NCBI RefSeq assembly: GCF_000828675.1 | Contig: NZ_AP014510.1 | Span: 701,413 to 765,412, forward strand | Origin: Thermotoga profunda AZM34c06 | GTDB lineage: Bacteria > Thermotogota > Thermotogae > Thermotogales > DSM-5069 | Direction: 5' to 3' | DNA: 64,000 nucleotides | Part shown: positions 161-42,265 of the stretch, in pieces | How the letters are laid out: each line of letters begins with the position of its first letter | How positions within the stretch are numbered: the stretch's first letter is position 1 | Notes under the pieces: model-generated | Told to the model about the DNA's origin: nothing | Seen by the model: only the letters and a program-made list of their open reading frames with translations | The model's database searches: none | Made by a program: the position numbers and the translations under genes

Positions 161-841
161 TCAGTTTTTGCCAAGTATATCTTTTTTTAGCATATTGACC
201 CCAGCATACACAACCCACGTATCGACATAATCCAGTGCAAACTCAATAACTGTGGTTGTAAGGTATATATTTAGCAGTGTTCTGAAATCGTATATTCCTA
301 CGAATGCCAAACTCACGAAAACGAAATTGTCCAAGATTTGTCCAAGTTTTGTCGCGATATTGTTTCTCATCCACAATTTTGTTTTAGTTCTCAGTCTATC
401 GTGTATCCAGACGGCAAAATAGCCCGAGAGTATATAAGCAATCCAACTGGCAAGAGCTATTCTCGGTGTGAAGGCAAAGGCATTTGAAAGATAACCCTGA
501 GCTACATCGTTTGAAGAAGGTATATATCCTACATAAACAAGTCCAAGTAATACGAAAATGAATTGAGCAAAAAAACCTATCCAGATGGCTTTTCTCCCCT
601 CTCTTTGTCCATAGATCTCTGTGATGATCGAATAGACAGCGAAAGCCATACCCATGCTCATATTTGCAGCCGTCACTTCAAGACCAAGGAGGTTAAAGAG
701 TTTTGCCACTCCTAAATTTGATGCAACTATCAGAGTAGCAAGGGCTACGTATAATCCTTCTTTTTTCAGAAATCGTATGGCAAACAATACTGTCAGACAT
801 GAAACTATATACTCAAGTCCCAAAAAGAGAAAGTTAGTCAG
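161..841 (-). CDS. yhhQ: Queuosine precursor transporter, YhhQ/VUT family, apparent CTG start
   Basis: A membrane protein of about 226 residues with several hydrophobic helices, matching the YhhQ (DUF165) family that imports queuosine precursors. Family-like segments are KKEGLYVALATL, ITEIYGQREGRKAIWIGF and the C-terminal FALDYVDTWVVY. The first ATG/GTG/TTG in frame is the TTG at 823, which has no ribosome site and cuts into helix 1. The CTG at 841-839 lies 6 bases after GAGGTGA and restores an N-terminus of family type (TNFLFLGLEY); a TGA closes the frame just upstream. A competing four-codon ATG frame (848-834) overlaps this start. No preQ1 riboswitch was recognised upstream. QueH at 54706-55254 is a likely metabolic partner. 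Confidence 0.85.
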   Translation of the reverse strand: MTNFLFLGLEYIVSCLTVLFAIRFLKKEGLYVALATLIVASNLGVAKLFNLLGLEVTAANMSMGMAFAVYSIITEIYGQREGRKAIWIGFFAQFIFVLLGLVYVGYIPSSNDVAQGYLSNAFAFTPRIALASWIAYILSGYFAVWIHDRLRTKTKLWMRNNIATKLGQILDNFVFVSLAFVGIYDFRTLLNIYLTTTVIEFALDYVDTWVVYAGVNMLKKDILGKN

Positions 842-40824: not shown

Positions 40825-40847
40825 GTCTATAAACAGAGGTGATCAAG

Positions 40848-41702
40848 TTGAAAAAGATGATAATGATTCTCGCACTCACTGTTCTTTTTGTGACTGTTCC
40901 GAAATTCACCTTTGAGTTGGTGAGTTATTTTGAAAACTTCGAGACAGAAGAAGATCAGGTTGTTGAGCTTGGATTTGATAGTTACAAAGATCTTTTGGAG
41001 TTTTTCGAAAAGATAGGATATGACCTTGGTAAAAAAGAAGTTCCAGCGGTTATCTTGAAGAACTTACCAAAAGACATGAACCAGATAAAAGACGTCCAGT
41101 TGAAAAAAGATTTATTTGTCAAGATAATGTTGCCGATAATATTGAAGGTGAACGAGGAGATCAAACAAGAAAGAGAAAAAATCATGAAATTGACAAATGA
41201 CAGTCAGGAACTCCAACATTATCTGGCAAAGTATAAAGCAAAGACAAAACAAGAACTCCTTGAGAAAGTCGATGTGATACCAGTAGAGATCGCTTTAGCT
41301 CAAGCGGCAATAGAATCGGCATGGGGAACTTCAAGGTTTGCGATCGAAGCGAATAATATTTTCGGAGAATGGACCTTCAGTCCAGGAAATGGAGTTGTAC
41401 CAAGAGAACGCCCCGATGATGAAGTATACGAAGTCAGAAGGTTTCGAGATTTATTGAGTTCGATGAGAAGTTATGCTTACAATCTGAATGTATCACCGTT
41501 TTACAAAGAGTTCAGAGCCATCAGAGCCGGTAAGATCAAAAAACCTATCGAGGAAGGTTTGTTGTACTATTCTCAAAGGCGTGAAAAATATATTCAAGAA
41601 ATTAAAATTATCATGACCAACAATAAATTCACAGAACTCAAAGAACACAAGGCTTATCCAATCCAGATTGCTTTGATATCAGGAATGAGTTTGATAAAAT
41701 AA
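40848..41702 (+). CDS. Bax-like secreted N-acetylglucosaminidase
   Basis: 284 residues from TTG 40848 (AGAGGTGAT upstream). An N-terminal signal or anchor is followed by a helical region and a C-terminal glucosaminidase-type lysozyme fold: ALAQAAIESAWGTSRFAIEANNIFGEWTF, with the catalytic Glu in AAIESAWG, and RRFRDLLSSMRSYAYNLN. This matches the Bax/FlgJ-like (COG2992, GH73-related) family that cuts peptidoglycan. It is in tandem with a deacetylase, so the two together probably remodel cell wall. Confidence 0.85.
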   Translation: MKKMIMILALTVLFVTVPKFTFELVSYFENFETEEDQVVELGFDSYKDLLEFFEKIGYDLGKKEVPAVILKNLPKDMNQIKDVQLKKDLFVKIMLPIILKVNEEIKQEREKIMKLTNDSQELQHYLAKYKAKTKQELLEKVDVIPVEIALAQAAIESAWGTSRFAIEANNIFGEWTFSPGNGVVPRERPDDEVYEVRRFRDLLSSMRSYAYNLNVSPFYKEFRAIRAGKIKKPIEEGLLYYSQRREKYIQEIKIIMTNNKFTELKEHKAYPIQIALISGMSLIK

Positions 41703-41725: not shown

Positions 41726-41756
41726 TTGATCTTTGAAAATTATAGTATAGTATAAT
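41726..41756 (+). promoter_or_regulatory. Candidate pilin promoter
   Basis: TTGATC (41726-41731), 19 bases, TATAAT (41751-41756), 31 bases before the pilin start. The spacer is long; the repeated TATAGTATAGTATAAT offers alternative -10 registers. Confidence 0.45.
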
Positions 41757-41786
41757 GTTCTTGAAAATTGAAAAGGAGGGATTTTT

Positions 41787-42215
41787 ATAAGGAAAGGTTT
41801 CACATTGATCGAATTGTTGATCGTCTTGGCAGTTATGGCCGCCTTGATGGCTATTGCAACTCCTATCGCACTTAATGCAGTTGCTCGAGCAAATGTAATG
41901 AGAGTAGCAAGTAATATGAGAAACATCAAAAGCGCCATTGAAAGTTACGTAAGTATTGAAAGGCCATCCGATACATCAGGGCTCGATCTCGATATAGACG
42001 ACTTAGTAGATTCAGGTTATCTGTCCGCAAACCCAGGTAACGAATACGAGATGAAGGTAGATAACGCCAATTGGGCTACAAAAGGTGAAGTCATTGTGAC
42101 GATTTCTTACACAGGAAATGATGTTGATACGACTAAACTCCAAGAAGCTTATCCAGATGTCAAAATCGTTAATAATACACCCACAATTACCCTTACTCTT
42201 AGAAAATGGTGGTAA
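41787..42215 (+). CDS. Type IV pilin-like protein, apparent ATA start
   Basis: 142 residues if read from ATA 41787. The N-terminus is then (M)RKGFTLIELLIVLAVMAALM, a textbook prepilin: basic leader, Gly-Phe cleavage site, Glu5 and a hydrophobic helix. The frame is closed by TGA at 41769-41771; between it and the motif no ATG, GTG, TTG or CTG exists in frame. ATA lies 7 bases after GGAGG; ATT at 41781 is too close. The first canonical codon, TTG at 41805, would delete the peptidase site. The mature domain is short (pseudopilin-like) and no pilus machinery is adjacent. It has its own promoter-like and terminator elements. Confidence 0.85.
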   Translation: MRKGFTLIELLIVLAVMAALMAIATPIALNAVARANVMRVASNMRNIKSAIESYVSIERPSDTSGLDLDIDDLVDSGYLSANPGNEYEMKVDNANWATKGEVIVTISYTGNDVDTTKLQEAYPDVKIVNNTPTITLTLRKWW

Positions 42216-42233: not shown

Positions 42234-42265
42234 ACCCAGCAGGGATTGCCTGCTGGGTTTATTTT
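42234..42265 (+). terminator. Terminator after the pilin gene
   Basis: ACCCAGCAGG (42234-42243) pairs with CCTGCTGGGT (42249-42258), 5-base loop, then TTTATTTTT. It overlaps the end of the convergent ArgH-like gene. Confidence 0.85.

Follow-up and report, generated by a model that had tools for sequence, protein, structure and literature searches.

The window, a stretch of 64,000 nucleotides from the genome of Thermotoga profunda AZM34c06, carries a pilA-like gene for a type IV prepilin, which lies between a gene for a Bax-like protein and a terminator-like hairpin (Table 1). The assignment of the gene to the type IV pilins was borne out, as the prepilin scored 30.4 bits against the Pfam N_methyl family (PF07963; cut-off 21.2) and 32.9 bits against NCBIfam TIGR02532 (cut-off 16.3), contains the [KR]GFTLxE motif for N-terminal methylation and cleavage, and is matched over its full length by the pilins of the family at 44-60% identity. 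A pilin match is present in 95 of 103 genomes of the phylum. Moreover, a profile built from nine relatives matches solved PilA and PilE pilins over up to about 93 residues, and the solved PilA pilins of Geobacter, Thermus and others are sequence relatives of the T. profunda protein. The phenylalanine at profile position 5 corresponds to residue 1 of the mature chains in these structures, thus the leader consists of four residues, X-R-K-G. The protein resembles known PilA and PilE pilins in its short positive leader ending in G, in F at +1 and E at +5, and in its hydrophobic helix, but it differs from them in the start codon, which is ATG in the known pilins and apparently ATA here.

Table 1. 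Features of the pilin locus, in coordinates of the window
Feature	Position	Strand	Basis or remark
Glucosaminidase-domain (Bax-like) gene, upstream neighbour	40839..41702	+	Pfam PF01832; syntenic with the pilin gene in congeners
Inferred promoter, TTGATC (41726-41731) and TATAAT (41751-41756), 19-nt spacer	41726..41756	+	Visual alignment with relatives
Alternative -10 box, TATAGT	41746-41751	+	14-nt spacer, as in one congener
Shine-Dalgarno sequence GGAGG, within AAAAGGAGGG	41775..41779	+	Sequence; same sequence and 6-7 nt spacing in relatives
Apparent start codon ATA	41787..41789	+	ATG in all four nearest genomes sharing the short leader
pilA-like gene for a type IV prepilin, 142 codons and TAA stop	41787..42215	+	Pfam and TIGR matches, solved pilins, matches in the phylum
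Leader R-K-G	41790..41798	+	Expected site of prepilin peptidase cleavage between G and F (41799)
Internal TTG	41805..41807	+	First canonical in-frame codon; lies within the motif, beyond the cleavage site
Terminator-like hairpin with a T-rich tail behind it	42234..42258	+	19 bases past the pilin stop

No second copy of the PilA-like pilin was found in the genome, and the gene is therefore single-copy; two further (minor) pilin-type genes, uninterrupted by stops, sit together about 680 kb away. The genome also encodes pilus machinery, namely two strong matches to T2SSE ATPases, a T2SSF platform protein, a secretin and a Peptidase_A24, all of them uninterrupted. Given the hairpin behind the gene (two terminator hairpins found against 0.3 expected, one hairpin being counted on both strands), the pilin probably forms a transcript of its own, driven by the putative TTGATC/TATAAT promoter, whose counterpart before the pilin gene of the relatives has the form TTGAWT-N14-16-TATAAT. 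A consensus promoter scan with spacers of 16-18 nt did not report this TTGATC/TATAAT pair.

From the in-frame stop (41769-41771) into the motif, the codons read TGA(41769) AAA GGA GGG ATT TTT ATA(41787) AGG AAA GGT TTC ACA TTG ATC GAA. The sequence agrees with the initial annotation in that ATA directly precedes RKGFTLIELL, 7 nt past GGAGG, and in that the interval between stop and motif is free of ATG, GTG, TTG and CTG. A spacing of 7 nt is the most frequent one between GGAGG and start in this genome, being found at 59 of 149 GGAGG-preceded starts in a 483-kb sample. In about 483 kb with 415 long frames, the pilin was the only long frame that carried GGAGG with ATA at the 5' end but had no canonical start upstream, and the remaining GGAGG and ATA matches were internal. 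The bare pattern GGAGG-N7-ATA occurs about as often as expected by chance (2 found against 1.25 expected in 64 kb), therefore the case for the ATA start rests on its position and on the comparison with relatives. Two other codons were considered and rejected. ATT at 41781 stands 1 nt past GGAGG, which is too close, and is out of line with the ATG of the relatives. ATG at 41755 opens a short frame that ends with TAA at 41788-41790, over the ATA; this ATG shares bases with the likely -10 box, is missing in relatives, and a slippery site of the usual form that could lead from it into the pilin frame is absent. A search for tandem repeats near the pilin gene, as a basis for phase variation, found none.

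The relatives locate the start. Exactly at the ATA codon, the three congeners G001, G002 and G003, as well as G005 from another genus of the same family, have ATG with the Shine-Dalgarno sequence 6-7 nt before it, and this identity of position and ribosome-binding site confirms that the ATA occupies the true start position. In the other family members the pilin ATG stands a few codons farther upstream, and the T. profunda gene was the only one of 39 pilin frames counted in relatives of the phylum without a canonical start in reach. The differences are most simply explained by a single G-to-A change at 41789, found in T. profunda, the one genome of the species compared, and nowhere else. As the relatives have ATG at this codon, either ATG changed to ATA on the T. 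profunda lineage or there is an error in the deposited base. With no canonical in-frame codon upstream, a well-spaced Shine-Dalgarno sequence and orthologues starting at the same place, the pilin ATA would belong to an already known class, that of rare near-cognate starts.

Initiation at AUA is credible in T. profunda, since infC, the gene for IF3, apparently starts at ATA in each of the four genomes of the genus (loci L095, L096, L098 and L100). The T. profunda gene, in the region of position 1973091 of the contig (G000:C1), reads GGAGG-TCGGGAGC-ATA-GAA-AAG, and no ATG, GTG or TTG was found between the Shine-Dalgarno sequence and the conserved part of infC in G002 and G003. Two genomes of other genera (L097 and L099) have ATC at that place, and the codon always stands 8 nt after GGAGG in the genomes of the genus and in these two. 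A dedicated initiator tRNA (anticodon UAU) was searched for and rejected; the pattern GGGCTNATAACCC was found once, with CAT, and the sole initiator-type anticodon arm is thus CAU. The infC gene of Escherichia coli starts at AUU, and IF3 discriminates against AUA starts in general. In Staphylococcus aureus, infC, ccpN and citZ start at AUA, the infC start being of the same class as that of T. profunda infC, and reporters with AUA (ccpN and citZ) or AUU (cvfC1) reached about 10% of the AUG control (PMC13009471). The ccpN AUA reporter reached up to 30% of AUG in rich medium, its efficiency changing with the medium, and the AUA of citZ is confined to one strain lineage (PMC13009471). These published reporters make it plausible that ATA limits the synthesis of the pilin, as the initial annotation had proposed.

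We consider it just probable that this single-copy PilA-like (major-type) pilin has exchanged an ancestral ATG for a weak, lineage-specific ATA start and that prepilin is made at a reduced level. One substitution on the lineage would have turned ATG into ATA, and 30S subunits would still start at AUA with the initiator fMet-tRNA (anticodon CAU), given that the Shine-Dalgarno sequence is strong and kept at the best distance. The prepilin would then begin fMet-Arg-Lys-Gly before Phe (fMet-RKG/FTLIE, the slash marking the cut) and be cleaved normally; the mature pilin would be unchanged, with its synthesis reduced to a fraction of the earlier rate and dependent on how stringently IF3 discriminates against near-cognate codons. 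On the sequence comparisons, such a recent single-base change accounts for the observations most simply and is favoured over a new control system. Against this reading stands the fact that the ATA is not conserved in any relative and comes from a single genome; an erroneous base, or a mutation that recently disabled the gene, would look no different. Next in likelihood comes a recent near-null mutation as the main rival, followed by a base error.

The pilin gene itself shows no sign of decay as far as substitution patterns tell. Its reading frame runs without a stop through 142 codons and retains every one of the 33 invariant columns in a nine-member alignment, and in pairs with congeners pN (0.28-0.30) is well below pS (0.70-0.77), much as in pairs without the T. 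profunda genome. The intact frame does not date the ATA change, and a recent loss would look alike. It is a real, if clearly less probable, alternative that ATG changed to ATA in this strain, perhaps in laboratory culture where pili are dispensable, that pilin became too scarce for pili, and that the frame has not yet had time to decay. The change is private to the T. profunda genome, AUA initiation is weak in the known cases (PMC13009471), and another Thermotogales genome, G071, offers a parallel, a tandem pilin copy with ACG beside a near-identical copy with ATG. Moreover, the T. profunda pilin sits on a tip branch of 0.44, against 0.16-0.27 for the congeners. This long branch is, however, not specific: the Tajima rate tests disagree by outgroup (25 against 8 with G001, 13 against 12 with G002), pairs with G002 are equally divergent, and for both the Tajima and the dN/dS tests of relaxed selection the synonymous sites are saturated. 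The open reading frame and the pilus machinery are both intact and the Shine-Dalgarno sequence is still perfect, which also speaks against a loss.

A sequencing or assembly error, with G as the true base at 41789 and ATG as the start, we regard as rather unlikely. The close relatives all have ATG and a single base would account for everything, but the difference is an isolated substitution and not a homopolymer indel, and the genome is one contig, 99.99% complete. The quality of the sequence seems good, since none of the 44 window genes compared is frameshifted against the congeners; beyond the pilin, the gene models of the window extend over the full length of their counterparts in the congeners, and 42 of the 44 have a canonical start close to the N-terminus in common with them. 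The other two are the pilin, where internal TTG codons are all that is shared, and a gene for a Vut_1 family transporter. In a wider orthologue comparison, which sampled about 680 kb of the genome, no other credible ATA start was found in 109 orthologue pairs with G003.

A possible role of initiation factors deserves separate consideration. Coupling of the pilin ATA to IF3 is possible, as IF3 rejects AUA starts generally and the genus has an apparent ATA start in infC. The suggestion that the pilin stands under dedicated initiation-factor control found no direct support: its ATA occurs in one genome, the close orthologues all have ATG, and this lack of conservation argues against an established regulatory device. 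In an IF3-regulated, infC-like start the non-canonical codon would be conserved among relatives, as it is in infC but not in the pilin. It strikes us as highly improbable that the AUA starts of pilin and infC together form an IF3-coupled switch in which free IF3, and thus the growth state, tunes pilus production. Still harder to credit is that AUA was selected so that pilin synthesis tracks IF3 activity or the growth state, in the manner of infC autoregulation; the ATA of infC in the same genus and the medium-dependent efficiency of the S. aureus ccpN AUA (PMC13009471) would fit it, but ATA is absent at the pilin start of every other genome compared, the structure of the leader RNA around the start does not rise above that of shuffled sequences in the pilin genome and three congeners (fold z-scores 0.2-1.2), and selection on the codon is not evidenced. 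Equally remote is translation from the internal TTG, which is the first canonical in-frame codon, the one an ORF finder lists, and has a weak AAGG 7 nt upstream, but whose shortened product MIELLIVLAV... would lose the leader and the G/F cleavage site that define a prepilin, whereas translation in the relatives begins before this point, at an ATG preceded by a strong Shine-Dalgarno sequence, and the AAGG is dictated by Lys-Gly codons.

Major pilins are normally made strongly in piliated cells, and an AUA on the sole pilin copy is therefore unexpected. With the known near-cognate starts, those of infC and the AUA starts of ccpN and citZ (PMC13009471), the pilin would share a strong Shine-Dalgarno sequence before AUA, a start with fMet and a lowered output. 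The starts of infC and ccpN are conserved and regulatory, whereas the ATA of the pilin occurs in one genome only, and its nearest likeness is the citZ AUA of one S. aureus lineage (PMC13009471). In the literature searched, we found no example of a pilin with an AUA start. If a weak ATA start is indeed used, the natural AUA starts known, which are very few, would gain a structural gene; if it is not translated, a single base can switch the pilus off while the gene still looks intact. Either way, ORF finders limited to ATG, GTG and TTG reduce the pilin to a leaderless protein, listed here as 41805..42215, with leader and cleavage site lost. The genus apparently has an ATA start in infC too, which gives the species an internal control for initiation at AUA in a thermophile.

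Other unusual starts were noted among pilins. The tandem genes of G071 (L110, G071:C6 21941-23362, minus strand) resemble the T. profunda case in that the first copy has a non-canonical codon exactly at the ancestral ATG; the bases directly upstream are the same as in the ATG neighbour, and this copy is the longest branch in the pilin tree. They differ in that a near-identical ATG copy adjoins and an in-frame GTG overlaps the Shine-Dalgarno sequence, whereas T. profunda has one such gene, which lacks a canonical start. Two distant pilin-motif frames (L035 2501 and L051 2507) lack ATG, GTG and TTG between the upstream stop and the motif; they come from 80 distant pilin loci of a contig scan, in which near records may be left out.

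Within the pilin region (41772-42212), G003 is closer to G001 (72%) than to T. profunda (57%), while the flanking glucosaminidase and deacetylase genes place G003 beside T. profunda (82-84%). This conflict of distances suggests exchange or fast divergence of the pilin genes. As to the Vut_1 family transporter gene (window 164-841, minus strand; Pfam 124.7 bits), its only start supported by a Shine-Dalgarno sequence is CTG (839-841), a codon that reads TTG in G003; TGA stands immediately before the CTG, and the first canonical codon after it is an internal TTG that lacks a Shine-Dalgarno sequence. Two more CTG/TTG exchanges at the likely start, one in each direction, were seen between T. profunda and G003 in the 109 pairs, both on the minus strand: one in the stretch of L134 and L175 (near C1:600001-702000 of the T. 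profunda genome) and the other at L137.
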